A stretch of DNA of 24,002 nt, taken from Ectocarpus siliculosus (Eukaryota > Sar > Phaeophyceae > Ectocarpales > Ectocarpaceae). The stretch is from NCBI GenBank assembly GCA_000310025.1, contig FN648505.1, positions 165,193 through 189,194 of the forward strand, read 5' to 3'. The position numbers and the translations under genes are program-made. This document shows, piece after piece, positions 5,356-22,610 of this stretch. Positions within the stretch are counted from its first letter, which is position 1; each line of letters opens with the position of its first letter. Below the pieces are notes generated by a model. The model ran no database searches. It was given only the letters and a program-made list of their open reading frames with translations, and was not told where the DNA came from.

Positions 5356-5705
5356 TGTTTTTTAGGCGGACACGTTTTCGGCGGTATTGCTATTTGGCGG
5401 TATGTGTTTTGGCGGTATCGGCTTTGGCGGTGGCGGTACGAAAAAAATCGGCGGCATTTTTTCGGCTGTTTTGCTGGCGGTACCTGTTTCAGCGGTCGGC
5501 GGTGATGCGTTTTTCGGCGGTATCGACTTTGGCGGTGGCGGTAAAACAATAAAACGGCGGTATTAATTCGGCGGTAATGCCATACGGCGGTGTCGTGTTG
5601 GCGGTTGGCGGTATTCGCGTTTTTCGGCGGTATCGACTTTGGCGGTGGCGGTAAACCCGAAAAACGGCGGTAAAACGGCGCCCACCACGGCGGTATTTTG
5701 ACGGC
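5356..5705 (+). repeat. GGCGGTA word array 1
   Basis: About twenty copies of GGCGGT, mostly GGCGGTA, are all on the plus strand and spaced irregularly, with T-rich linkers often reading TTTTCGGCGGT or GACTTTGGCGGT. An identical 37-base core occurs at 5507-5543 and 5617-5653, which are 110 bases apart. It recurs in array 2 at 6303-6339. The array ends with GCCCACCACGGCGGTATT, as array 2 also does. Confidence 0.9.
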
Positions 5706-5749
5706 GGCAATGATTGCAAATGGTCACAACTTCAAGCGACACCAAACAA

Positions 5750-6186
5750 CGGCGCCCGAACAGACGGCAACCGTCTTTTCCGAAGATTGACCACGTTCTT
5801 CCATGGTTTTGTCGTTTTCACCGGTGACTTTCACATTTCAACAAAAAACATGAGACGGATGTCTCCAGGTTTGTTTACGTGTGGACAAGTTACCCTTGGG
5901 ATGTGTGGTGTGGGTACACACCGGTTCAACCTCTGGTGGAGAGGCTGAAGAGCACGGATAGTTGTGTTCTGAGTCAGGGGGGAATTGAGCCTACTGCAGC
6001 AGGTTCAGCGTCCAGCATACGCTGACTCTATCTGTGGCAACACCCCTAAGGTAGATCTCCGACAGGTCATCTGGCGTGACAATCTACGACAGTCTGGCAT
6101 TCACAACATAAAACACACTCGAATGCTTGACATTCGCTTTGACTGTACTTTGGATGAGACAAGGTCTCTACCCACTCACCCGTTGG
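5750..6186 (+). other. Unique block between the two GGCGGTA arrays
   Basis: This 437-base block lacks the GGCGGT word. It contains an open frame from about 5985 onward (…RPAYADSICGNTPKVDLRQV…) that runs on into array 2, so its end is not natural. No terminal inverted repeat or target duplication is evident. It may be unique sequence between two repeat copies or an insertion into a formerly continuous array. Confidence 0.3.
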
Positions 6187-6395
6187 TAGGCGGTAATGCA
6201 CCTATGGGCGGTAATTTTTCGGCGGTATTGCCATAGACTATGGCGGTATTTTTTCGGCGATGTTGTCATAAGGCGGTAACAGTTTTGGCGGTCGGCGGTA
6301 TTGCGTTTTTCGGCGGTATCGACTTTGGCGGTGGCGGTACAATCGAGAAACGGCGGTAAGACGTATACCGGTACCGCCCACCACGGCGGTATTAA
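6187..6395 (+). repeat. GGCGGTA word array 2
   Basis: About twelve GGCGGT words lie in the same orientation as array 1. The array holds the third exact copy of the 37-base core at 6303-6339 and the same closing CGCCCACCACGGCGGTATT. The shared order of core and closing motif suggests that the two arrays are copies of one repeat element and not independent simple repeats. Confidence 0.9.
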
Positions 6396-6609
6396 TATTT
6401 TCCTGCTGCGCGCTGGAGTGTTCTCTTACAACATCAGGAGGGCGAATCTCTGTATTTCCTCACATGTGCTAATACACGACTTCGTCTCGGGGGGACGCGG
6501 AACAAGCGATGGGTTTGAACTGCGATCGTGAATATAGGTGTGAAAATGAAAATAAGTCACGGGGGGACACCAGTCGTTGAGGGCAAATCAGATGGAATCA
6601 AATTATCAC

Positions 6610-6718
6610 CTGCGCCACGAAGTCCTCGTGTAGCCGATCCTCTTCCAGCAGTTGCCTCTCGGATAGGTCCTGACGTGTCGACGCAATGTGCGCCTTGGTG
6701 ACTCGCAAGACCATGTCC
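6610..6718 (-). CDS. Exon A of the unidentified minus-strand gene
   Basis: The exon is 109 bases, flanked by an excellent acceptor (a T-rich tract then GTGCTAG, intron side 6719) and a donor GCGCAG|GTGATA. It encodes 36 codons plus one leading base, starting DMVLRVTKAHIASTRQDL and ending in an acidic/amphipathic LLEEDRLHEDFVAQ that looks helical. It ends in phase 0, which fits exon B. No family is recognised, and the gene's 5' part has not been located upstream. Confidence 0.42.
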
Positions 6719-8225
6719 CTAGCACGCAATAAAAAAGACAACCAAAAGGCACGCATCAGACCGAGAACAATAGAGACGTTGGATGGGTAAGACCACATCT
6801 GCACTCCCTACAGGGCACAGATATCTCATCATCCGCACCGCTCTTGTTACAACACACATATTTAGTTGAACAGAGTTCGAACAGGCAATACCACCTAGCG
6901 GCACCACCCACTTCTTCCATCGAAATTACACAAGGTAACAGCGGGTACAATCCATGGGAGAAATCTGATCTACATGTAAGACGAGGTTGCTGTAGGATAT
7001 TAGGGGGTGTAAAACACAACGCCGGATCATCAGCAGTCATGCTATACAAACAGCAAAGATCACGGTCATAACGGTCGTGGTGCCATACACGTAGGTTGAA
7101 CTAGACAAATACAGGCAGGGGATACATGGTACGACTGCACAAACGCGTCGCACATGGTAGTACAGAGACTCGGGGGTTCATATTGTACACCATAGATACC
7201 ACACCCGTGGTATCTTACGCGACCTACAGAAACTATAATTTCTCTTCGTACGAGCTTTGCGCTAACCCGCCAAGAAAAGCACGCGTTCGCGAAGCGATGT
7301 GAGAGACGCCTATGTGTGGAACCGTGCAAGCATGCGAGCGTGACGTATGCTACACGCACCAACAGAGGCTGACTGCTGTTCTGTTGCCATGCGAGTCTCT
7401 CGTTGCCGTTGGACAATTTTGTACATCTGAATATAGACTGTAGGCTGCTGCTGTACTCCTTGCGTCTGGGTGGGGGTGCGCCGGTGAATGTCTATACGAG
7501 GCAGCTTTCACCTGAGATTGCGATGCCGAGGAAAGGTTGTGCCCGATTGCTCCTGAGTGTGTGCCTTGACCTGCTGTCCTGTTGAGGTCCACTTTACCCT
7601 CCAGCGGCGGGCTGAGTCAAAGCGGTTTGTTGGTTGGGGTGGCCTCCACATGCTTTCCCGCCAATCCGAACCGCATCAAAGCATCGATTCCCGTCGGCGG
7701 GAAGGCAAGCTGTGGCATACAGTGCTAAACATCGACATTACACGGCACTTACGGTGCGTGGTACGTGGTGGGTGGCGCGTGTGGTCGTGTCCCTCGTGTT
7801 TCGTGTCCATCTCCCGTCTACCATCATGCCATGCGTCTGTTTGTGCGGCCGAGGGGCGCCGCGGCTAAGATATGAAGCGTACGGGGGCTCCGTTGATGAA
7901 GATGGATAACGGTCTACATCATCACCCGCACACACCTCTGTCCTGCCGCACCGCATGCAGTCACTCTGTCATGAACAAATGTCATTATAGCACGCGCCTC
8001 TGTGGAGCTGCCCGTAGTGTGATGATTTGTGCGTAAGAAGACGTGAAATGTCGTCACCAAGGCGGCAAATGTCAACATCGCAATGCGGCAATAGTTTCAG
8101 TCTTACATGTATGTATGTACAGCAGAGCACTTGGTGTGTGCATGTGAAGGATCTTCCTGGCGGTTTTGCCTTTCACGGTCCACAGATCTCCTTATTTACA
8201 ATCCTGGCAGCGTCGACATCCTGAC
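6719..8225. other. No supported gene
   Basis: Several short frames are open on both strands (for example minus 7066-7416 and plus 7634-7909). None has flanking splice sites with consistent phase, biased codons over its whole length or a recognisable motif. A Cys-rich minus-strand patch (VCCNKSGADDE…CRECRCG, about 6800-6860) just upstream of exon A could be part of that gene but lacks a clear donor. Confidence 0.35.
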
Positions 8226-8344: not shown

Positions 8345-10149
8345 TCGTAGCGTTCGTTTACGGCGATGAACTGTACATTCGAACCACGCCACTGGTTGTA
8401 GATCTAGATCGCTCCTGGACTGCTTGTAGCCCGTTGAGTCGACTCCAGAGGCGGAGCTTGCGCTGGAGCTGCAACCTAGGTAGGGGTGAAAGTATTGCGT
8501 ATTTCGGCAAACCCTGTGGAGCATTGTCGGAAGGAAGGGGTTTGAAGCAGACAACCAACTTGAGGCAACCGCCCTCTTTAGCAACGCCGTTTTAGCGCTG
8601 ACTCTATTGGACATGAAACGCTTTTTTGGACGCGGGTTTCCCACTCATTTTCTTTCTGTGCGTGTATATATTTTTCCTTGATATCCTACCTGAATACACA
8701 TTTCAGGGACAGCGTGCATGTTGGCGATCTGATCGATGGTTGGGACTGCCTGAAGCAACTGCCAACAAATCCGCAACTTGGACCAAACGAAATGTCCTGG
8801 CCGTGGTGTCTGTGGAAGCGAGTACATGAGTGACACAGGTTGACTAAAGTACCCCGTCCGGAATCCAATTTGTTACGCGGTGTTTCGGTACTGGTTTGTG
8901 CTGTTTAATTTGACTCGTGGGTTATCTTTCGACCTGAGTCACAAACCCAAAGAAGTTGAGAATTCAATATTGTCTGCAAGGGCTTCAACCCTTCCCTTCC
9001 AACACCCTAGACCCACCTACAACAACAGATACCGGCTATTCCCGCGTGTGCCTCCCGAAACCGTCTTTCGAAAAAAGCCGAAAACACCGCGGGGTTTCCA
9101 TTCGGGATTTGGTATAAGTACCTGGTACTACTTCGAGTAACGTATGGTGCAGGACATGAAGTGGGACGAGGGGTGCTTCCCGAGACGCTACGCTAACTGA
9201 AGAGAAACAGTAACAACGAGGCGTCGCCGTCATCCCCCCAACCCTCTTCACCCACCCCTTACCCCAGCCGTGGGCCTCCTGCGAGTATTCATTTTGTTAT
9301 TGCGACATTAATTTGTTCGAGACAAATATTGACAATGCTCCTTTCGTGCGGTGGGTCCTGGGTTGTGGGCTGGATGCATGGCATCAGCTAACCGGAACCC
9401 AACTGTTGTGTTGTTATCTTGCCCCTGCGAATTTCGTCTTCATCTAATGCTTAAGGCGAGCATCCAACGATGCGTTGCCGACTAAACATCAAGAACACTG
9501 GCATGGATAAGCGAGCGGGGTCCGGCGAAGTCGACACGCGCATGATGATGACGATACTGCTTGACGAACAGCGTGGATACCGTCCGGACACAACCTGGTC
9601 CGGACTAGGAAATGATTTGGTCGGGCGGGCGGGGAATGTTGCGTGGACGTGCTGCCTCGAGGAGACTGTAGATTTGGGATCGTGGGCAGGGGTTAGAGGA
9701 GCCCTGGCTTGGGCTGGGTCGGTGACGGCGGAGGGCGACAGGTGCTTGTGTAATTGCTGTGCGGGGGGGGGTGCTGTTGTCTAGGTTGGGACCAAGGGGG
9801 TCATCAGCGAGAGGGAGACGGTGGACGAACGAGGGATTGTCGGGTTGGGTTGCGCCATTTCGACAAGCACACACTGGCCGCTACACGGACAAGGGCAGCG
9901 ATAACGTTTCGGTAGGCGGTCTTCCATTTGGAGTTGATTTTTATTTGCTGTCTTCTTCATGGAGAGGTGCTGTGTAAGGTTTTCTTATGTCTAACACCAG
10001 CCCTTAATACAAAAGGCTGAAGGAGTACGTGGCAGACAAATATCCCCCTGCGATGTGCGCTCGCAGCCTTTGCGTTGGTGTCTTTGTTTGGTTTTTTGTT
10101 GTTCCTGTTCTCAGTGTGCTGCTGCAAAGCACCCGGGCTCCCACACAAT
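8345..10149. other. No supported gene; overlapping weak frames at 9.47-9.87 kb
   Basis: At 9470-9784 (plus) and 9605-9874 (minus) two frames of about 90-100 codons overlap antisense. The minus one starts MCACRNGATQPDNPSF and is Pro/Ser/Arg-rich, while the plus one is Gly/Trp-rich. Both are shaped by a strand composition skew (a C-rich minus strand), so neither can be trusted. The rest shows no exon-like segments. Confidence 0.35.
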
Positions 10150-10545
10150 CTTGTATATGGATTCACTGTTATAAAAGTGAATATTTGACTGTTATAAGTC
10201 GGCTCACCCCTACAACAGTCATCGATATTTCACTGTTATGACAGTCAGTTCATTCACTTTCATAAGAGTCAGCTGACTCTTATGAAAGTGAGGTGTCAGT
10301 TCACACACTGTTATAACAGTCAGCTGACTCCTATGAAAGTGAGGTGGGTGCACATTACTAACAGTCAGTTTGGGGACTTTTATAAAAGTGAAACAACTGT
10401 CAGCTGACCATTATGAAAGTGAGGTGTCAGTCCAAACACTGTTGTTACAGTCAGCTGACTGTTATGAAAGTGACGGTGGGTGCACATACACTAACAGTCA
10501 GTTTGGGGGCTTTTATAAAAGTAAAACGACTGTCGTGCAAGTCAC
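10150..10545. repeat. Palindrome cluster with 131-bp tandem duplication
   Basis: Blocks such as ACTGTTATAACAGT (10307-10320), ACTTTTATAAAAGT (10376-10389) and GTCAGCTGAC recur in alternation. One perfect palindrome of 38 bases spans 10254-10291 (centre CAGCTG). A 131-base unit starting at 10284 is repeated at 10415, with mismatches falling mostly inside the palindromic arms. An open plus-strand frame through this region is a by-product of the repeats. Confidence 0.9.
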
Positions 10546-11459
10546 CTCTAACAGCCAGGCGGTAAAAATGACTTTGATTTTGGAGCAGTTCTGCAGCTCT
10601 CATCAAGAAACGGAACGATGGGACGAGCACATACTTGCCCAAGCGCATCATTGAATCATAGAAATATGCAACTTCAGTTACAGGTTCCAGGCGCATGACG
10701 TGACGAAGGTAATTGCGATATGGCGATCCTCGAGCAGGAAAGCCCGTACGTGTTGTGCACCGCATAAATAAGACGAACCCCCTGCGCAGCTAGAACGATT
10801 CTCACGGGTGTGTACGGCTGGTTCACCTAGGTTCGCACATACCGCGAGCAAGACGTAAAGGGATAAAGGCACACTACACCCGCCGACAACACCTTTGATA
10901 CCACCGCGGGCCTTCCTCCGACGACGCAAATGAACCCCACGGCAGATGAACAACCTCGACGAAGGTCGTTGAGTGAACCACTCAACCTGTGACAGTAACC
11001 ACTCAACCCGTGACAGTATGTCTCTGTCGGGGGTCCTATCCGACGATCGGTGAATGCCAATCTAGACCCGCAAAAACAGCGGTGAAGTGCTGACCAAACG
11101 CAAAGGCTACACCACAACCAGAACATGTACAGCATCGCTCCACCACCGTTCTCCCCCTTCGTGGAGCCCCCCTGTGCGTGGACTCTCTTCTGAAGAGTAG
11201 AATTTTGATCCTCCAGGCAGGCGTTTGGTGCCGCTTGTGGCACTGACCCACGGGGGCAACATTTCGCGAACGACATACAGCACAAAGGAACGAATGCGAC
11301 TGCGTGTAAGGCGTGCTACCTTGCGTGTAACGTGGTTTGATTGAATAATGTGGGAACCCCTAAGCACCGGGTAGAGGTGCTTGCCTATACGACGGTTTTG
11401 TGGCTTGGTGTGCTCTTTCAATAAATAAAAGCGAATAGGTTGTGCGGATCGCATGCAGA
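10546..11459. other. No supported gene; small hairpin and 21-bp tandem repeat
   Basis: At 10968-10986 an eight-base stem (GTTGAGTG/CACTCAAC) encloses a three-base loop. A 21-base unit (10977-10997) is repeated at 10998-11018 with one mismatch. Minus-strand frames across 10827-11463 are open but mutually overlapping and have no recognisable motif. Confidence 0.45.
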
Positions 11460-13048: not shown

Positions 13049-13440
13049 CTACCAGTCGTCTACTCCGTCACGCGAGGAACGTAATTTTGTTCATCTTCTT
13101 CTAGCTTTATGAGGTGCGGTCGCCGACTGCAGCGGCATTTCGCCTTGATGGCGCAAAAAAGAAGAGGCAACGGTGCGGGACGCTCAGTCAAATATTGCAT
13201 TGTAGCAGAGTCGCACCCCAGAAATCTGGCGAGTGCAGGCGAGCAGAGAACGGTAGGTCTAGGTAAACACGTACCAGTTTTTTCTCGCGTCCTGGTCAGG
13301 CATATTCGGTGTCGGCAACGCCGGAGGGGTGATGGGGCGTATTCCGACAAAAGCGCTGTACTCGTACAATAGACCGCTTCGGAAGTTTTTTTTTGGGTCA
13401 GACAAACTGGGGGTTTGACATTTTTGTGTAACGCCGTGAG
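13049..13440. other. Ambiguous region, weak frames on both strands
   Basis: The plus strand has an ATG at 13109 opening a basic frame (MRCGRRLQRHFALMAQKRR…) with a possible donor near 13255. The minus strand has a frame ending in a stop near 13060. They are antisense to each other, so at most one is real. I cannot choose between them. Confidence 0.25.
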
Positions 13441-13446
13441 ATATCT

Positions 13447-14272
13447 CATGGGCGCCCATGGGCCCCCATGGAACCCCATGAGGTCGATATTATGTTAATC
13501 CATGGGGGTCCATGGGTCCCATGGGCCCCCATGAGAACAATCTCATGGGAACCCATGGGCCCCCATGGGTCCTCATGAGGTCCAATGAGAATCTCATGGG
13601 ACCCCATGAGAAATCTCATGTATTGTCATGGGGGTCCATGGGAGCCATGGGTCCCCATGGACCACGATAAAAATCGATAGTCTCATGAGATATCTCATGG
13701 GGTACCATGGAAAACCACCCCATGGTGTCCCATGAGATTTGCCATGGGGTCCGTAAATATAATTTTTTATCGTTCGCCATGAGCCCTCATGGCGTGCTAT
13801 GGCGCACCATGAGATCCCACGAGAAACAAAACCGAAAAAGCGAAAAAAGTGGAATTCAAATCAAAGCTATGGGTCTCATGAGGCCTGATGGCGCCCCATG
13901 AGGCCCCATGGGGCACCATGGGTCACCATGGAGTCTACCAGTTTATTTGGTTAATTTCAATAAAATTGGTAGCCCATGGGGGTCCATGAGGAAGTCGTGT
14001 CTCCCCATGGCGCCTCATGAGAACCCACGGGGCATAATTAAATTACTAACTATTTTATTTATTTCCTAATATTACGCGTTTCCCTGTCGGATATTTTTTT
14101 TTTTCAAATTTATCTTCGAAACCCCATGGGGTACCGTGGGATACCGAGGGTCACCATGGGTGACGACGAAGTGCACTATGGGTGGCCATGGGTCCCAATT
14201 TTATGCTGGCCATGGGGCACCATGAGAAACCTCACGCATGTACCACGGTGGGGCACCATGAGCTACCATGAG
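13447..14272. repeat. CATG word array with 10-bp phasing
   Basis: About 45 CATG tetranucleotides fall in 826 bases, where about three would be expected by chance. They are embedded mainly as CCATGG, CCATGA, TCATGA and TCATGG. Starts at 13447, 13457, 13467 and 13477 are exactly 10 apart, as are 13544, 13554, 13564 and 13574 and several later pairs. Because CATG is self-complementary the array reads alike on both strands. Linkers are mostly G/C-rich, broken by short AT-rich patches (for example 13755-13775 and 14030-14120). Decayed words (CACGAG, CCACGG, CTATGG) increase toward the right. Confidence 0.95.
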
Positions 14273-14277
14273 AAACG

Positions 14278-14580
14278 TATTATGATATTATGTAATAATA
14301 ATGTTGTTTTTTCCTGAAAACAATAATATTATTATAAATATATATAAATAATATATTATATTATTATATAATATATATCTTATATATTATATATATCTTA
14401 TATATTATTATATATTATTATATATTATATAATAAATAATAATATATATATAAAGTATAAATATTATCAATTATTATATTATTATATTATTTAATGTAGT
14501 TTTCTGAAAACAATAAAATTATTAAAATATATGTATTAATATTATTATGATAAATATATATTCATCGTTATTATTATAAT
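14278..14580. repeat. AT-rich island with internal direct repeat
   Basis: About 300 bases are almost purely A and T, built from TAT, ATT and TATATA words. Two direct copies of a TTTTC(C)TGAAAACAATA motif followed by A/T words start near 14311 and 14501, about 190 bases apart. There is no coding potential. It abuts the CATG array and contrasts sharply with the surrounding composition. Confidence 0.92.
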
Positions 14581-14871
14581 ACGAAGGAAGTACGTGTATT
14601 CTAATAAAGAAGAACTGCGGAAAATAAAGTTAGTTATAGTTTATGTTATTCTTTTCGATGTACAAAATAAATGTAGATGCCTCGCTTAGTTCTGTACTAA
14701 TATTCGCCTTAGTTGGGTTGATTTTAACTTAGTTTCTGCTTTGCATTATATCACGGAGAATGTTCAGAGTTCGTGTGGAGTAACGGACTCCGTTCCGAAG
14801 AACGGTCCGGAACTACTGTAACCAACCGTGATAATTAATTCCGAGAATAACGGAAAGACAATCAACACGGC
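14581..14871. other. Moderately AT-rich flank of the island
   Basis: No gene is seen. The word CTTAGTT recurs several times between about 14685 and 14735. Near 14780-14820 there are partly inverted words around AACGGACTCCGTTCCG. Confidence 0.4.
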
Positions 14872-14957
14872 ATGGCATTATCGGAGACACCGCACACCGC
14901 ACGTCGAAGCTCCCAAAGAATCGACTGTCCGCGTCGGCGCTCCTACCGGGCGCAGGT
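14872..14957 (+). CDS. Possible first exon (weak)
   Basis: An ATG at 14872 opens 28 codons (MALSETPHTARRSSQRID…) and ends at a perfect donor GCGCAG|GTAAGT. The donor is the main evidence, and one such octamer is expected about once by chance in a window this size. The minus strand holds a competing complete 64-codon frame at 14813-15007 containing SRFFGSFDVRCAVSP. I cannot decide between them. Confidence 0.2.
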
Positions 14958-15235
14958 AAGTCCCTACCTTTGCCGTGTGCATGCTGTGGTACCTGGCTGG
15001 CAGACATGCTGCCGTTGTTTTAGAGTGAGCAGCAGCACCGCACCCCCCATGGGAGGAACAAACGTACCTGAATCCTTGCGTCGCCGTATTTAGAACGAGC
15101 CCTTATTTGGTACACGTGCACAACACGAAGCCGGAACGGGTGTGTGTGACGTCCTACACGGCGTGGACGTCGGAGACTATATCTCGCCTCCTCACACACG
15201 CCCCAAACGAATCACATACACACGCAGCACGTCGG

Positions 15236-15529
15236 TTAGTCTAAAGACGGACACGCAGCAGCAGTAGGGATGGAAGAGAGAAGAAGGAAGAAGGATAACG
15301 GTATGTAGGCGCGACAGGCGGTGCGGTCCACAACAAAGTCAGGAAAATAGCAGGATGGCCGCGCAACGTAGAATACTCCATAGTCCAGAGGGAGGTGGGT
15401 GACGTCCACTACTGCTGTACATGTGAACGCCACCAGCAGCAAGACGTTACCGCCCGTCTTACTTGTGGCCCTGCCGGAACCCTCTCTTTCTGTAAAATAT
15501 GGGATATGGCGGTCTACAGTACACATCAA
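15236..15529 (-). CDS. Unidentified open frame, possibly membrane-associated
   Basis: About 97 codons are open on the minus strand, ending in TAA at 15236. The sequence contains hydrophobic stretches (NVLLLVAFTCTAVVDV and YIPLSFFLLLSSIPTAAA) that could span a membrane. A splice acceptor (ATTTTACAG) lies near 15490. Two plus-strand frames overlap and also look plausible, including one in which the CTG microsatellite yields a Leu run. Confidence 0.22.
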   Translation of the reverse strand: MMCTVDRHIPYFTEREGSGRATSKTGGNVLLLVAFTCTAVVDVTHLPLDYGVFYVARPSCYFPDFVVDRTACRAYIPLSFFLLLSSIPTAAACPSLD

Positions 15530-15556
15530 AAATTTTTATTCCCGCCTGCTCTCGGG

Positions 15557-15577
15557 TGCTGCTGCTGCTGCTGCTGC
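15557..15577 (+). repeat. CTG trinucleotide repeat
   Basis: Seven tandem copies of a GCT/CTG unit form a simple microsatellite. Depending on frame it gives a Cys, Ala or Leu run in overlapping open frames, which makes those frames look more protein-like than they are. Confidence 0.9.
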
Positions 15578-15581
15578 TCTC

Positions 15582-15884
15582 TCAACAACAGCGAGTACAC
15601 GCGGGGAAGCGTGACCTTGAAGTGCATGCAGCAGCTGAGAGGCCCGCCGCTAGCTCCTCCTGGTGCGCACTCTGTAGATCCGCTTGCGTTTCAGGCTTTG
15701 ATGTGTGGAGCTTAATGTCATCGACGGCGTTCGAGGTTCGAGAGTGTATACGGAGCGCCGGATGACCGACGGTGTTGCCGGGTTGGCTACCTCGCACCTT
15801 GAACGTAAACGGACAGGTGTGACCGTGTGTCAGCGTGAGAAAAGCTCGCTGAGTGATGAGGGTCTTTCCTGGGTAGTCCCGCAT
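15582..15884 (-). CDS. Unidentified open frame, possible exon
   Basis: The part after a possible acceptor (TTCAAG at about 15805) has fairly strong codon bias and a hydrophilic composition (RIHSRTSNAVDDIKLHTSKP and ETQADLQSAHQEELAAGLSA). The stop is TGA at 15582. A good donor is lacking. A plus-strand frame across 15705-15905 is a rival. I recognise no family. Confidence 0.22.
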   Translation of the reverse strand: MRDYPGKTLITQRAFLTLTHGHTCPFTFKVRGSQPGNTVGHPALRIHSRTSNAVDDIKLHTSKPETQADLQSAHQEELAAGLSAAACTSRSRFPACTRCC

Positions 15885-15905
15885 CGTGATCCTGCTTTGC
15901 GCTAA

Positions 15906-17020
15906 TGTCTTTTGTCTGTGCTTTCACTATTATTTGCACCGTCCCTGTTCTGATCATTCTGAATATATATATGTGTCTTGCGGCGTCCTCCATGGCCAGG
16001 GGTGCCGCCGCTTGGAACACAGGGGTTGGGAGAGAAAATGGAAAGAGGCGGCGCCTGGCGAAACCTTGAGCCCGGGTCCGCGACCGCCTCTGGTCGAATT
16101 GGGCAAGTCGAGGTGGTATTAATAGATGTTTTGGCTACCCTCGGATGGAAGACCGCTTGGTTGAAGTCCACTACTTCCTCTATCTATAGTTTTCGGTTAG
16201 CAGGAGTAGGCGAGGCATTGATTGTCAACCTTTGCATGGGGGCTTGAAGGGTGGAGCTCACGCACGAGGGCGGACCCCTGCTCCACGTGCGAGTTGGACG
16301 TATGGATAAATAGTGGTTTCAACAGCAAGCTGGCAGAAGGTTCCGGGGTTGGCGTTTTGGTAGCGCCCTCAAGGTTGCTGTAATAGCGACAGGTTGGAAA
16401 GCGGCGGCATTATTATGTAAAAAAGGTCGACATGCAGCGAAATTATTGAAAGTTCAATGCACGTTGATCGTGTCTAGGCGAGGGTTGGTGTCTGTAGGTC
16501 GCATGAGGTAAGTACGGATCTGAATTATTGTCGGTCGTCTTTCGCGAACAGCTTCCGTAGGTCAAGACTTCATGCAGGTATAGTCGCGTGCTCGGTTTCC
16601 ACGCCTGCCGCTTGGTGGTGGTGCGGTAGGTCCACGTCGTCTTCCGTGGAGTTCTGTTCGTCCCCAACACAACAAAGGCCCCTCTTTTTTACATATATAT
16701 TAATGTGGTTATCGAGCATGGGGTGAGGGTCCAACTCTCGACGTTTGGAGATATGGCAAAGGTATCAGGTATCAACAATCGAGGCAATGCCAACGCATCG
16801 AAGCCGCACAGGAAACTTCGACGTAAAACGTGTGTGTGTGTTGGGGTGTATGCATCTGTATTGAAATAAGACTCTCCCCCCGCATTTGGGAGTTCTGCTG
16901 CCCTCGCATGTCGAAAGCCGTAGTTTTGAGGACGGCAGTCCTGGAGAGGGTGAACCCTGCGCTCGTACAATTATATGCATGGGGTTAGGTTCGTATTTCT
17001 CCTCACTATTTGCCAGCAGA
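15906..17020. other. Weak frames only
   Basis: Minus-strand frames at 16443-16670 (…TTWTYRTTTKRQAWKPSTRL…) and 16765-17127 (…DLLANSEEKYEPNPMH…) and a plus-strand frame at 15978-16247 have protein-like stretches but no consistent splice-site support. The 16765-17127 frame lies one base out of register with the 17021-17370 exon, so it could be a continuation after a frameshift. There is a TATATATATG patch at about 15963-15972 and a GT-rich patch near 16829-16840. Confidence 0.3.
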
Positions 17021-17370
17021 TCAGAATGAGAAGATCCCTTTGGCTCGTTTTGGTCGAATTGGGTGGCACTTTGGGCTTGTCTGTTGGCTGGGCATGGACC
17101 ACTTGAGCTTAGCAAAGAAGGAAACAAGAGAAACCGGTGCCACGGTGACTTCGTCGGGGCCGTCGTTCGAAGGGGGGAGGGGGGCTTTCTGTACTGTTAG
17201 GTTTTGCATGAGCTTGAAAAGGGGTGCATCGCCACAGCTTCGGTGCAAGCCCTGTGGATGGTTTGTGGGAGGAAGGAGATCAAGGTCCGTGAACTCTTTA
17301 CTTGGGGGTATGGCATTTCCCATAACTATACAACCCCCACTCTTCAGCAAGCTCATGATATTTGCACACG
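17021..17370 (-). CDS. Candidate terminal exon of a small two-exon gene
   Basis: A T-rich tract ending GTTCCAG (intron side 17371) is a strong acceptor. After it, 115 codons run to TGA at 17021-17023. The product includes NIMSLLKSGGCIVMGNAIPP and NDGPDEVTVAPVSLVSFFAK, with a basic tail ending KRAKGIFSF. Codon use is moderately biased. It joins in phase to the 17466-17547 exon to give a protein of about 143 residues with no family I know. A longer plus-strand frame (17010-17558) covers the same bases and is His/Arg-rich at its end, which is typical of a shadow. Confidence 0.3.
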
Positions 17371-17465
17371 CTGGAACAAAAAAAAATATCCTCACGTTGG
17401 GAGGAACATGTCCCCAGTCACCAGTTCAGACGATACACCGTAGACATTTCCACCGCCATCATCAC

Positions 17466-17547
17466 CTACGATATGGTGACCGTTTCGTATTTGTCGTGAG
17501 GAGTGTGTCCCAGCAGGATCACCACACGTCGTTTCCTCATCAACCAT
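17466..17547 (-). CDS. Candidate first exon of the small two-exon gene
   Basis: An ATG (17547-17545) opens 27 codons plus one base, starting MVDEETTCGDPAGTHSSRQI. They end at a donor ATCGTAG|GTGATG. The resulting 95-base intron (17371-17465) is short but ends in a strong acceptor, and phases agree (1 plus 2 bases). Function is unknown. Confidence 0.28.
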
Positions 17548-17753
17548 TCTTCCAGTAAACCCCAACGAGTAGATAGTGTGACGAGCACGAAAGGCTCTTT
17601 ACTTGATAATGTGTGACACATGTAGCTGTATTGATAATACACTAGGGTAAGGCAGTGCCGGCGCCCTCGCCTTAACGTAGAAATCGAAGCGCCACTCGCA
17701 TCAGACTTATCTCAATCTGCACCCCTGTCCAACTGCGAACAAAACCGCTAAAG

Positions 17754-17884
17754 TCAGAGGCGGAACCGAGGCTCCTCCCGGAGCAATTTCTCCCTCAGGA
17801 GTAGCTCGTTATGTGTGAACATGTTGACCATCAGGGTGAATCTGTTCATGGTGCTTGACATCTTGGAGACGCACGGTCCCAGGC
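17754..17884 (-). CDS. KDZ transposase, last exon
   Basis: The exon begins after a pyrimidine-rich tract ending CCCTCCAG (intron side 17885) and encodes 42 codons, ending PRFRL and TGA at 17754-17756. The stretch VSKMSSTMNRFTLMVNMFTH aligns without gaps to the segment that follows the catalytic Glu in KDZ transposases, where a conserved Met, an aromatic or basic residue and a long helix with a terminal Asn recur. A Glu/Arg/Leu-rich helix (ELLLREKLLREEPRF) closes the protein, close to the usual family C-terminus. The phase (1 plus GC) fits exon 18622-18776 directly. An apparently phase-compatible exon at 18172-18279 was rejected because it breaks this alignment. Confidence 0.78.
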
Positions 17885-18621
17885 CTGGAGGGTACACAAC
17901 AATGGAAACGCGTCGACGGTTCGAAGTAGAGAATAAGCATAGAGTCAGGAGGCGACGTCAACTCCCCCGACATTTGATCAAACGTCGATTAGCAACGGAC
18001 ATCGGATAGAGCGCACAAACCTACAAGGTTGGAGGTGGGTTGATGCATGACGAAGTCTTACACATAAAGAGCAATTTTACGGACGTATAATTCGGCAATA
18101 AACACCTCGATACTTTTTTGTTGACGTTTGGGTGCATGTATAGACGGGGGAACTGCTGTGTACGACCTTACCCAAAACGTACAAGTTGTCTTGTTGTCGC
18201 AGGACAAAGTTAGCGTAATTATTAGGTCGCCGTTGTTGGACTGGACCCTCAAATCGAAATAACCCCGTATTCAGCACCCCTGCGTAACGCCTTCGAGTCC
18301 GACAAGCGCAAGAATTTCTGAGCGCAAGGTTCAAATTGAATCTGTAGGAGGTTTTCTTACGAATTGACGGTCCGTGATACCGTCAAGACCACGTCTCGGA
18401 GCTCGCGGTTAAGATCGCTCGCTGTTGATTTCATATAGGTATATGGTGTCCACCTACAGCAAACAAACGCCCTCATTTCACGACAAGACCTATTCGCCAG
18501 TGTACTTCCGTTCATTCCGCGAATCTGGGTTTAATGCGAATCCCACCCCGCCGGCGCAACCATCGTGTCAGTCAACAAGAGCCCCCACAATAGTTCGTCC
18601 CCGTGCCAAGAACTGCTTTAC

Positions 18622-18776
18622 CGTGGAGGATGGAGTTCGAAGATTCTGCCCGTGATGAATTCCAGCGAAAGGTCGGCTCGTCCACCCCGTTGTTGATCCA
18701 TAACAGGGGGTCGTCTTTTCTGTTGGGCGAGCAAAACTCGTAGCAGTCGGGTTCGTCATGATGAAGCGCGTGAAAG
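18622..18776 (-). CDS. KDZ transposase, catalytic exon with FH…H…C…C and AE motifs
   Basis: The acceptor is CCGCAAG (intron side 18777) and the donor is CCACG|GTAAAG. There are 51 whole codons. With the preceding exon it forms VDRFHALHHDEPDCYEFCSPN, written here as VDRFHALHH then DEPDCYEFCSPN. This is the family's VDxFH…H…D…C…C..N block, a histidine/cysteine pattern expected to bind metal. Further on, FRWNSSRAESSNS corresponds to the family's N-S/T-x-x-A-E-x-x-N motif, whose Glu is taken as the third acidic catalytic residue. Codon bias is strong. An ATG at 18790 just before the acceptor could mislead a gene finder into starting here. Confidence 0.85.
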
Positions 18777-19114
18777 CTTGCGGCAGTCATTAACGACGAT
18801 GTACCATCAACAAACGGCGATGGGGGGGCGTGTAGACGTTTCAATTAGTGAGCATGAATATGCAATCGAAGGTTGAACAAAATCCGGAGAAGGTCGCGGT
18901 GGCGTGAGCCACAACAGATATGAGTACCTCAAACGATAGCAGCTCCAACGGCAGGAGCGGTCCTAATGTTCTACATTATGTGGATTTGTTGGGTAGTTGA
19001 TTCCTAGACGATTCAAAATTGCGCGTACTTCCGGCTACGACCTCATCGTGGTATGATTTGCGTCGGCTTGCTTTTAAAGTTCTGGCAACGGGTAAAATCA
19101 GACGTTCATCTCAC

Positions 19115-19432
19115 CGGTCGACAATGTTGATTGTCATGGCCCATGTGGGGTCGGGGTGGCACAGTAGGAATCTGCGCCTTTTGCATCCCCGGTCGTAGAA
19201 CAGGATCCCTGGGCGGTGAGCAGGATCTTGTCAGATGTCGTCGAGAGCAGACGCCACCTCTGTATCCCCTTCGAACTCGATGATAGGAGACATCCCGGCC
19301 ATAATCCCGCAGCTCCACGTGCATATCAGGTATCCGAACGTGTGCCGTGGGCCGAGCATGCTGCGTAGGTACCTGATGCGGCGCGGCTGTTCAAGATTGA
19401 CGCACGCCGGGGTCAGCGAGATCGGTACGTTG
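19115..19432 (-). pseudogene. KDZ transposase, exon with FYDRGC motif and an in-frame TGA
   Basis: The acceptor is ACATTCAG (intron side 19433) and the donor is GACCG|GTGAGA. The exon has 105 codon positions, one of them TGA at 19231-19233. Before the stop, GPRHTFGYLICTWSCGIMAG matches the conserved Cys-Gly strand segment ahead of the first catalytic region. After it, ILFYDRGCKRRRFLLCHPDP carries the family's YDxxC motif, with a candidate first catalytic Asp, and a DP motif. The exon ends in NIVD, whose Asp continues into VDRFH of the next exon. The TGA sits in the variable spacer (…SALDDI–stop–QDPAHRPG…). A single C-to-T change in a CGA codon would explain it. Readthrough or a base-call error are alternatives. 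Confidence 0.85.
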
Positions 19433-19570
19433 CTGAATGTAGACCTCCGAATTACAGACATGACAACGTTTTGCACTGAGGTTCCGTAAGTTAGAACACC
19501 CAACTACTTGCTTGAACACGCTGACGCACACAAGACATGGACTGCAACACTCCACAACAAGAACATGTAC

Positions 19571-19798
19571 CTATTCATGTAGTTGGTACGCATCGGGACG
19601 CCCACCTCTCGAGCATCTCCTGCTGCCCTCGCAGCGCTTGTGGCATGCCACCCTCCTCTTCTTATCCATTGGAGGTAGTACCTTTCCCATGGTCTGTGGA
19701 AGGCGCAAACCAGACTGTCCTCCTCCGGCAGTCTAGGGCAGGGTGGGTCTGTGATGTTGCACATGTGGCCTCTCTTTTCCTCGTGATAAGTGCAAAAC
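19571..19798 (-). CDS. KDZ transposase, exon with second half of CxC6-like cluster
   Basis: The acceptor is ATGTTTCAG (intron side 19799) and the donor is GAATAG|GTACAT. There are 75 whole codons. It opens FCTYHEEKRGHMCNITDPPC and continues to VCAFHRPWERYY, with Cys and His spaced as in the second half of the CxC6-type cluster of KDZ proteins (…RFC..H……C……C…C…H). A basic linker follows (WIRRGGWHATSAARAAGDAR). If the 138-base intron (19433-19570) were retained, a TAG would stop the frame at 19504. Its T-rich middle and intact GT/AG support splicing. The cluster is presumed to bind zinc and to contact DNA or chromatin. Confidence 0.82.
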
Positions 19799-20147
19799 CT
19801 GAAACATGGTGTGCACCGAACGCCCAAGTGTCAGACAGTTTTAAACGTCCAGCTACAGCGGCGTTAGTCGTCAGGGGTAGGGCCTGTCTACGGCAGCAGG
19901 GTCGGGAACGTTGTCCCGCTCGAGATGATTTGGGTTATCGTTCGTAGACGACCATCATCGTACTATTGGTCAGACTTGGATGGTGACACGCCTGGATGAC
20001 TTGGTAAAGCACACATGAATTGGTAATTCAACAAGTCGTAACGAACGATGATTATCACCCAAGACCCCAAACAACCCACCCACCCACCCCCATGTTCTAC
20101 CCAGAGCCCGGTCCGTGGCGAGAGGCCTGTCAGGTCAAAAAGCTCAC

Positions 20148-20472
20148 CTTGACCCCCGTGTACCGCATAGGTCATCGGCGCAGCCGTACGTCGCACACTT
20201 AGGCCTCCTCACTGCCGTCAACCCGTCGCATACTGCGCCTCGTACGTGGACCTCGGTTCCGTCAACTTCGATCCGCTGACAGCACAACCTGCATTCGTGC
20301 CTTGTGTACAGCCCCTCTCTCTGGATGTCTTCCAACAAGATGTCTAGTTCCGTTAGTAAACCTTTCCAGTTGTTAGCTCCCGATAGGTTCCCGCGTTCGT
20401 CGAGAATTGAAACCTCGACTGGTCTATCGGCACGGATAGACTGGCCGGCTGGGGGTGCGTGCCAAAAGGGTC
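20148..20472 (-). CDS. KDZ transposase, exon with first half of CxC6-like cluster
   Basis: The acceptor is TTGAACAG (intron side 20473) and the donor is GTCAAG|GTGAGC. There are 107 whole codons. It runs PFWHAPPAGQSIRADRPVEV… through a helical segment (NNWKGLLTELDILLEDIQRE) into HECRLCCQRIEVDG, then GAVCDGLTAVRRPKCATYGC and ADDLCGTRGS. The 'A-V-x-D-G-x-T … C.…C' arrangement, followed in the next exon by 'RFC..H', is characteristic of the CxC6-like cluster that precedes KDZ transposase domains. Codon use is strongly biased. The exon would be easy to miss, because no ATG occurs in its 5' half. Confidence 0.82.
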
Positions 20473-20868
20473 CTGTTCAAGTGGGGCCGCACACATCGAC
20501 TTAGATTGCAAACGATTCACGCCACTGGCGTACGCCGACTTTCATATCTAGTTCGTCGTGACCAAGTCTAATGTTAGTTTGGTCGTTCGTGTAGTGAGCT
20601 CATTTCTGAACGGAGTTCGACTTAAGGTGCACGAGCGCGCGCGGTCTGCCACTGCGCGTATACGGGGTGGTAGGGACTACACTTAGAAGGGGGGATCCCG
20701 AATTGAGGATGCCCCCGCGCGATTGCTTTGGAAGTTGCCTTCTGCGGAGTGCGGACATGGGTATCCAACAATTGTCCTTGCTGTACGGTGTTCTGCAAGG
20801 ACCCGGCGTCTGGAGGGAGCGTCTCTACCGTCACTTGCGTTTAAAAAAGCGACAATCCAGAAGCGCAC

Positions 20869-21087
20869 CCCCGGAAACGAGCCATGACAAAACTGAGGGT
20901 GCATCGAGAGGAACTTGTGCCAAAACACGACACTCTCTCGTCGAAATGGTGCGTTTACATTTGTGTAGATACACAAAGGAACGCCCGTCCAGAATGACAC
21001 GCATGTTGCATAAATAACCGCCCCCTCGCGATGCAGCACGACCTTCAGTAATCCTGTCGTTACACAACACACACGTTGTGGGAACCT
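20869..21087 (-). CDS. Possible KDZ CxC5-like exon
   Basis: A possible exon lies between an acceptor CCTGCAG (intron side 21088) and a donor TCCGGGG|GTGCGC. It has 72 whole codons and phases that fit the 20148-20472 exon. It contains PTTCVLCNDRITEG, then VILDGRSFVYLHKC and a later REC. This resembles the C..C…(strand)…H..C pattern of the CxC5-like cluster found ahead of CxC6 in this class. The alignment is loose, a second frame is open alongside, and the expected closing Cys pair is imperfect, so the exon may be decayed or its limits wrong. Confidence 0.35.
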
Positions 21088-22049
21088 CTGCAGGACGACG
21101 ACCGCCGGGTAATGCATGCGAGGGTTCAGTTGGAGGCCGTACGGGGGGGCGTGTGGACGCCAAGGGTTAGAACAAGTAGCGATCTGGCATACCTTTGCAT
21201 TGGCGGTGTTTTAACAACGTCCAAATGGCCGAGCCCTCCAACAGGACACGTCCTGATAGCCGTGAAGTTCCACTGCCCCGTTCACGCGGGACGGTGCGGT
21301 GGTGGACGTCCGCTTGAGTCTGGAACCCTGCCCTGCATGATTGAACAATTGTACAGAGATGATAGTCAACCATCTGTGTCTTGGCTGGTAGTACCATGAA
21401 GAAATTAACGCGCGTCAGGCTGTACTTTGCTCTTGTTCTAAAGCCTTGAAGGTACATCCCCGTACAGTACCACACTAATGATGTGCACCAAGTACAGTCT
21501 GCCGGATTCTTATCTCCGAGAGAAAGTATTACAGGGTGGGTTCCATGTGTGTTTTATAATTCCGGTCGTCCCTCCGTCCTGCTGACCATGATTGCCACGA
21601 GACGCGAGGCCGTACTTGGAGGCGTCATAGTGCTGCACAGGTGGCCAGTGGGGCACGTTATGGGAGGTTATGCCCGCGCATAACCTGCCCAGGTTGGATA
21701 TACTCGGTATAACGTCTTCATCCTGGGTTACCAACCGCCGGTTTTCTATCGGATTAGGAAATCAATTTTAACCTTGCCTTGTCGGGCTGGCAACCTCAAT
21801 CCCAAACAAATGGGTGCAAGCTCGCCCGCGGCTGGGTGCCAATACAGCGACGCGAGGCTTCGCGTCGAGGCCACAGGAACAATCCCACACAAGGATTACG
21901 AAGCACACACACACGGAGTATACCACACGAGGATGATGATTGGGCCAAAAATAAAAAAAAAATGGTACTCCCTCACGTCCGAAACGTGAGCTCGATCACG
22001 TAAGCCGGGGGATCCCGCACATATTTAAAGTACGCCGGGGAGAGGGGCG
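21088..22049. other. No supported gene; expected location of KDZ 5' end
   Basis: The transposase start codon and promoter should lie here if the element is complete. Frames on the minus strand (21167-21475 and 21510-21734) have no recognisable family feature. No inverted repeat matching the sequence left of 17.75 kb was found by eye. An A-run occurs at about 21953-21961. Confidence 0.35.
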
Positions 22050-22610
22050 AAATTATCTCGAAGGCGAATGACATACATACGCGTAGTAAGGAGGAGGTCG
22101 GGGGTTCGATCGCCGCAAAATATATATATATTTTTCCCCCAAACCAACAAATTATACGCGAAATTTCGAAATTTCTCGCGAGGGCATAGGCATATGATAT
22201 GCGTAGTACGGAGGAGGTCGGTACTTCCTTCCCCGGGAAACATTTTTTTTCTTCCCGAAACCAAAAAAGTAAGCGCGAAATTAATCGCGAAGGCGTATGA
22301 CAAGCGTAGTACTTGTAAGGAGGAGGTCGCGAGTTCGATCCCCGCAAAACATGTTTTTTGTTTTTCCCAAAACCAACAAATTATGCGCGAAATTTCGAAA
22401 TTTCTCGCGAAGGTGTAGGCATATGATATGCGTAGTATGGAGGAGGTCGATACTTCGGTCCCCGCGAAAAAAAAAATTCTTCCCAAAACCAAAAAAAGTA
22501 AGCGCAAAATTTATCGCGAAGGCGTATGATACGCGTAGTAAGGAGGAGGTCGGGAGTTCGATCCCCGCAAAACATGTTTTTTTTTCCCCAAAACCAAAAA
22601 AATACTCCAA
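22050..22610 (+). repeat. Five tandem units with tRNA-3'-half-like blocks
   Basis: Five related units of roughly 110-120 bases alternate in two types, giving a higher-order period near 226 bases. Each has GCGTAGTA, GGAGGAGGTCG and, in the three A-type units, GTTCGATC (about 22104, 22333 and 22557) followed by CCGC and A/T runs. In tRNAs GGTTCGATCC is the T-arm and internal B-box, and T runs end Pol III transcripts. One unit has ACAAG-CGTAGTA-CTTGT (22300-22316), which has the geometry of an anticodon arm. No 5' tRNA half is present. Units are separated by palindromic AAATTTCGAAATTT or its relatives. Long minus-strand frames here are by-products. Confidence 0.85.

Follow-up and report, generated by a model that had tools for sequence, protein, structure and literature searches.

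The stretch of DNA analyzed here, 24,002 nucleotides of the brown alga Ectocarpus siliculosus (contig C91:165193-189194, FN648505.1; the whole stretch is called the window below), contains what we regard, with a probability of about 0.88, as a giant KDZ DNA transposon copy that has decayed and is not autonomous. Five exons on its minus strand join with matching splice phases, the DNA around them occurs in multiple copies in the genome and shares one terminus with them, a stop codon interrupts the reading frame, and the 5' part of the gene has been lost. All copies and paralogs mentioned in the following were sought in the 189 Mb of the assembly (492 contigs, cited as C plus a number), and positions are counted from the first base of the window, whose last base is also that of the contig.

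An initial annotation, prepared from the letters alone, had proposed a KDZ transposase gene of five minus-strand exons with matching phases without listing exon coordinates; those given here come from the present analysis. The exons indeed join in frame, each is preceded by AG, exons A to D are followed by GT, and the joined window protein runs from PFWHAPP to EEPRFRL followed by a stop codon:

Exon A, 20472-20148, minus strand: first half of the CxC6 cluster and the VCDGLT motif; 80% amino acid identity to C237 and C123
Exon B, 19798-19606, minus strand: second half of the CxC6 cluster; preceded by junction A/B, phase 2
Exon C, 19386-19115, minus strand: KDZ core with the SCG strand, FYDRGC and VDR; preceded by junction B/C, phase 0
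Stop codon TGA, 19233-19231, minus strand, within exon C: in frame, breaks the window copy; the C333 copy is open through all five exons
Exon D, 18776-18622, minus strand: FH..HH..C..C and NSSRAESSN motifs; preceded by junction C/D, phase 2
Exon E, 17884-17754, minus strand: C-terminal end including the stop codon; preceded by junction D/E, phase 1
CxC6 cluster, 20233-19690, minus strand: projected by alignment from residues 80-145 of the C57 paralog (PF18721); split by intron A/B into 20233-20148 and 19798-19690

The exons are real, as is evident from conservation confined to them, from non-synonymous divergence (dN) far below synonymous divergence (dS), and from intron sites retained in divergent paralogs. 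A genome search with positions 17700-21200 yielded 14 matches, namely the window itself, four close copies (C130, C333, C362 and C365) that are 96-98% identical to it, and nine short blocks of 70-79% identity on C237, C123 and C151, which coincide with exons A to E and leave the intervening sequence unmatched. In their better-aligned pieces, the translations of these blocks are 65-88% identical to those of the window in a single frame. In the comparison of the window with C237, dN and dS were 0.155 and 1.34 in exon A, 0.20 and 1.04 in B, 0.18 and 1.99 in D, and 0.11 and 1.45 in E, exon C not being computable owing to its stop codon. The splice sites A/B, B/C and C/D recur in the diverged paralog C57, sites A/B, B/C and D/E do so in C113, and splice sites are also retained in C237; phases in the paralogs are the same wherever both sides of a junction are readable. 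Exceptions are the exon B acceptor of C237, which is off by one base (C123 fits), the missing start of exon D in C113 and an uncertain exon C acceptor in C57. Junction D/E is confirmed independently, because D and E align as one unbroken exon in four (C455, C57, C95 and C296) of the 14 paralog loci fetched. The motifs that had been named at the outset are also present in the joined frame (C/H cluster, SCG, FYDRGC, VDRFH..H..C, NSSRAESSN and an M/N-rich end), and an ordered-motif expression, which is loose and was composed after the sequence had been inspected, fits the C-D-E part of the window and none of 200,000 shuffles of that part.

Other elements of the initial annotation did not survive. 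It held that no frame in the interval exceeds about 110 codons; five stop-to-stop frames of 111-175 residues overlap it, the longest being those of 175 (20683-21210, minus strand), 140 (19525-19947, plus strand) and 135 residues (20610-21017, plus strand), and none of the five is a verified exon. Nor is a 5' limit of the gene at 21087 supported. An exon from that position onward was considered and rejected: the frame is open across the whole query in the window and one other copy, it is matched in close copies only, and its seven genome matches consist of the five close copies (including the window) and two marginal places (E 0.22 and 0.33). In C130, C333 and C365, an N-terminal exon of 212 residues lies further upstream; of its 36 genome matches, none lies on C91. 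In the close copies, a putative middle exon would lie between exon A and this N-terminal exon; its likeliest frame, judged by eye, is out of phase with the upstream donor.

These observations bear on one alternative, an intact, expressed multi-intron KDZ gene that starts near 21087, which is how the interval had originally been presented. Apart from the one stop, the five exons are open and their splice sites intact, as such a gene would demand. However, the stop at 19233-19231 refutes it under the standard code, the N-terminal exon is absent from the window, and no diverged paralog retains the 21087 frame, so that we consider an intact gene very unlikely.

The assignment to KDZ comes from paralogs in the same genome rather than from the window copy. 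The C57 paralog matches CxC6 (PF18721) with 36.2 bits (E 7.2e-9, cut-off 27.5 bits), and three of the six members of alignment A1 match this model (best E 2.3e-11), the close copy (member 1) not being among them. Since the match spans splice junction A/B, it depends on the exons being joined. A paralog of the C9/C113 type, represented by the N-terminal and middle exons of C9, scores 25.2 bits against CxC5 (PF18718; E 1.9e-5), just below the cut-off of 26.9 bits; the corresponding part is absent from the window copy. Matches to KDZ itself (PF18758, cut-off 26.6 bits) are weak and were obtained for three of ten joined paralog proteins, two of the ten representing one C57 gene whose longer form is unmatched: C455, C57 and C95 reach 14.7-15.5 bits (E 0.014-0.025). 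These sub-threshold matches share one register, from YD.AC to the FH..H..C part (profile positions 76-161). The window and C57 both fit the ordered motifs D..GC/AC, DRFH..H..C and N-S-..-E-S-.-N, and D82, D262 and E307, to which we presume catalytic roles to fall, are invariant across the six members of A1, while the residue in YD is variable. Because three KDZ-associated models occur in one gene family and in the expected order, the KDZ assignment appears likely, even though the core by itself gives no significant match; judged by its sequence, the family is a predicted CxC5-CxC6-KDZ transposase.

The weakness of the Pfam KDZ matches leaves some room for a transposase that carries C/H motifs and belongs to a different superfamily, for instance EnSpm or Plavaka. 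We rate this as improbable as the intact gene, given that the H pair precedes the C pair in the window family and that the paralogs match CxC6, CxC5 and KDZ, all of them KDZ-associated models. Searches for relatives elsewhere added little: NCBIfam returned no result for the transposase, the PDB gave one match at E 0.45 in one search and none in another, a Pfam scan of six individual exon frames from this part of the window brought up nothing meaningful, and none of 40 pattern matches in viral contigs or of 34 in prokaryote genomes was confirmed.

As is typical of a DNA transposon, several copies occupy different places: there are five close copies, and the shared terminus is found elsewhere as well. 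The following parts of the element and its neighbor were delimited in the window:

KDZ element body, 13409-21636, minus strand: common to C130, C333, C362 and C365
3' terminus of the element (GGGGGTTTGACATTTTTGTG...), 13409-13429, plus strand: sharp end, identical at 13 places and with a mismatch at one further place
Start of another dispersed repeat adjoining the element, 21637-22060, no strand assigned: marks the loss of the 5' part

On the gene strand, the terminus reads ...TGTCAAACCCCC, and its flanks at 12 places (window included) differ, with the exception of C362 and C365. Thus, of the element ends that a genome search for copies had been expected to define, one was located at 13409 and the second was not found. 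At 21636, the window diverges from the other copies. Their sequence goes on further upstream, C333 and C365 being alignable over a total of 12,981 columns as far as the end of contig C365. When a query across 21636/21637 was searched, four KDZ copies matched bases 1-100 and 23 other places matched from base 96-100 on. As the junction is clean in both sets of matches, a different dispersed repeat adjoins the element here. The simplest reading is a nested insertion, although a rearrangement may account for the junction as well. The contig ends 2.4 kb past this point, and the missing 5' part therefore may or may not lie beyond the repeat. Interpretation of 13409-21636 as a 5'-truncated element resembling a long interspersed nuclear element was rejected, several apparent truncations of related loci being gaps in the assembly, seen as runs of N on C21, C3 and C172.

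The 3' end of the element (13409-14300) also occurs at eight more places than does the transposase gene (C24:1944850-1945742, C4:3246541-3247434, C21, C3, C172, C176, C57 and C367). On C24 and C4, similarity to the element extends over about 2.8 kb, after which both proceed into another sequence that they have in common; they are perhaps a non-autonomous relative. In full-length copies, a block of about 565 bp at the start of C130 (L009:1-600), upstream of the N-terminal exon, matches some 30 other places at 67-77% identity. A frame with a CCHC-like knuckle (CTYCKKKGHTMEQC), by eye probably a Copia-type gag, lies immediately beyond the 3' end of the element on C333 (C333:12000-17000, L028; C333:1-1300).

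The joined C333 protein as query retrieved at least 119 exon matches in the genome, a lower bound with 114 of 288 candidates scored. They form several groups with identities between about 80% and about 35%, whose division into six was made by eye. Such a large number of dispersed loci, together with purifying selection between paralogs, could also be expected of a cysteine-rich host gene family that derives from a transposase and is immobile now. We deem this less probable still than the two preceding alternatives, as the close copies stand in different surroundings within a repeat that measures at least 8 kb and has one end in common, and as three of the four close copies other than that of the window carry lesions: exon A of C130 is not followed by GT, and exon A of C365 and C362 is 10 bases longer and out of frame. 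Over 14,002 bases, the identity of C362 and C365 is 99.96%, and the two possibly represent a single locus. C333 alone among the four is open through all five exons, a reading of the sequence that says nothing on activity. Finally, chance frames resembling a gene, a notion fed by the shortness of the exons and by the guidance of their joining by motifs, are refuted by the conservation and are the least credible explanation of all.

Several findings weigh against the interpretation as a KDZ element. The joined protein of the close copy C333 matches neither the KDZ nor the CxC models of Pfam at E 10, nor does its N-terminal exon, and the profile search recommended at the outset consequently succeeded for the family (CxC6, CxC5 below the cut-off, KDZ weakly) and failed for the close copy alone; the proposed KDZ class, CxC6-like cluster and multi-exon structure are supported, the Pfam evidence coming from same-genome paralogs. 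Every KDZ match stays under the curated cut-off, and a search of the genome with PF18758 gave no matches, its controls being equally silent. The distant copies used for comparison are themselves disrupted: in C237, a base is added near the exon B acceptor and part of exon C is deleted; exon B of C123 shifts frame; and the C151 copy includes an exon C piece that is reversed in orientation. No inverted partner of the terminus was found, whether 11 bases were compared across 23,419 bases of C333 with up to two mismatches or 19 bases across the fetched loci with up to one, and the loci examined yielded no second terminus, inverted repeat or target-site duplication.

If the KDZ interpretation holds, the minus-strand gene would once have encoded the C-terminal part of a multi-exon transposase laid out as a CxC5 cluster, now lost from the window, a CxC6 cluster and a KDZ catalytic core. 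In KDZ families, cysteine clusters bind the element ends and a DDE-type core performs cut-and-paste transposition. By analogy with the family, the transcript would have been spliced by the host, the Cys/His clusters would have bound DNA at the element ends, and a DDE/RNase H-type core would have cut and pasted the element. The window copy provides no working enzyme and could at most have been moved in trans, before its 5' part was lost: it is not autonomous, given the TGA at 19233-19231 and the absent 5' part.

The novelty implied by the initial annotation does not hold, as KDZ elements have already been published for the brown alga Ectocarpus. Eight KDZ families with 6403 copies, 148 of them intact, are reported from Ectocarpus sp. 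7, where they make up 1.80% of the genome; the elements are generally larger than 10 kb, reach up to 30.3 kb and contain nested insertions, and their transposase genes are frequently broken, mobilization in trans having been proposed for them (Dinatale et al. 2025, PMC12477816). The window element resembles them in its brown algal host, large size, nested insertions, broken transposase and many copies, a comparison by description; the assembly of that paper (200.2 Mb) is a different one from that used here (189 Mb) (PMC12477816). It agrees with the published elements in all testable respects and, judged by description, may be a member of one of the eight families. With Zisupton, Kyakuja and Dileera from fungi and fish, whose ends are described by Kojima 2025 (PMC12730594), it shares the KDZ core motifs and clusters of the CxC type in Pfam naming. 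According to the same article, Zisupton has inverted repeats and 8-bp duplications, whereas Kyakuja has CA..TG ends without inverted repeats and 7-bp duplications (PMC12730594). In our case, a single end is known (...TGTCAAACCCCC on the gene strand) and no duplication was seen, and one end cannot decide among them. With respect to the Pfam models CxC6, CxC5 and KDZ, the paralogs match, while the close-copy protein of the window is too diverged.

More speculatively, and with rather less than even odds, brown algae may possess their own deeply diverged, intron-rich CxC5-CxC6-KDZ clade, with at least six families, three to four shared intron positions, members that mostly fall below present KDZ model cut-offs, and ends without ordinary inverted repeats. 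Knowledge of KDZ is unchanged in kind, large elements having been known in Ectocarpus before. Plain calling of open frames, and even Pfam, miss multi-exon KDZ genes in algal genomes; the exon coordinates and paralogs offer material for better KDZ models, and how old the giant elements are and how they are inherited becomes testable through the conserved introns.

Further repeats were noted in the window. Positions 22047-22601 form a tandem array with 2.5 copies of a 229-bp unit, in which a stretch resembling a tRNA T-loop was seen by eye; ARAGORN detected no tRNA in this array, and an Rfam search gave no result. GGCGGTA-rich tandem repeats occupy 5374-5672 and 6202-6270, sequence from within 5379-7095 is found again on C237 and C123, ahead of the 5' side of the paralogous KDZ exons there, and 10134-11161 is a dispersed repeat 89% identical to a stretch of C151 that adjoins another KDZ relic. 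Outside the window, the RuBisCO large subunit, searched for as a host marker, had no match, and the genome contains 87 matches to light-harvesting protein genes. A single one of these genes places the host near giant kelp, from which a brown alga was concluded. Its protein agrees at 187 of 198 residues with FCP17 of PDB 9YGV, which originates from the giant kelp Macrocystis pyrifera (PMC13219633); the next PDB chain reaches about half the bits.
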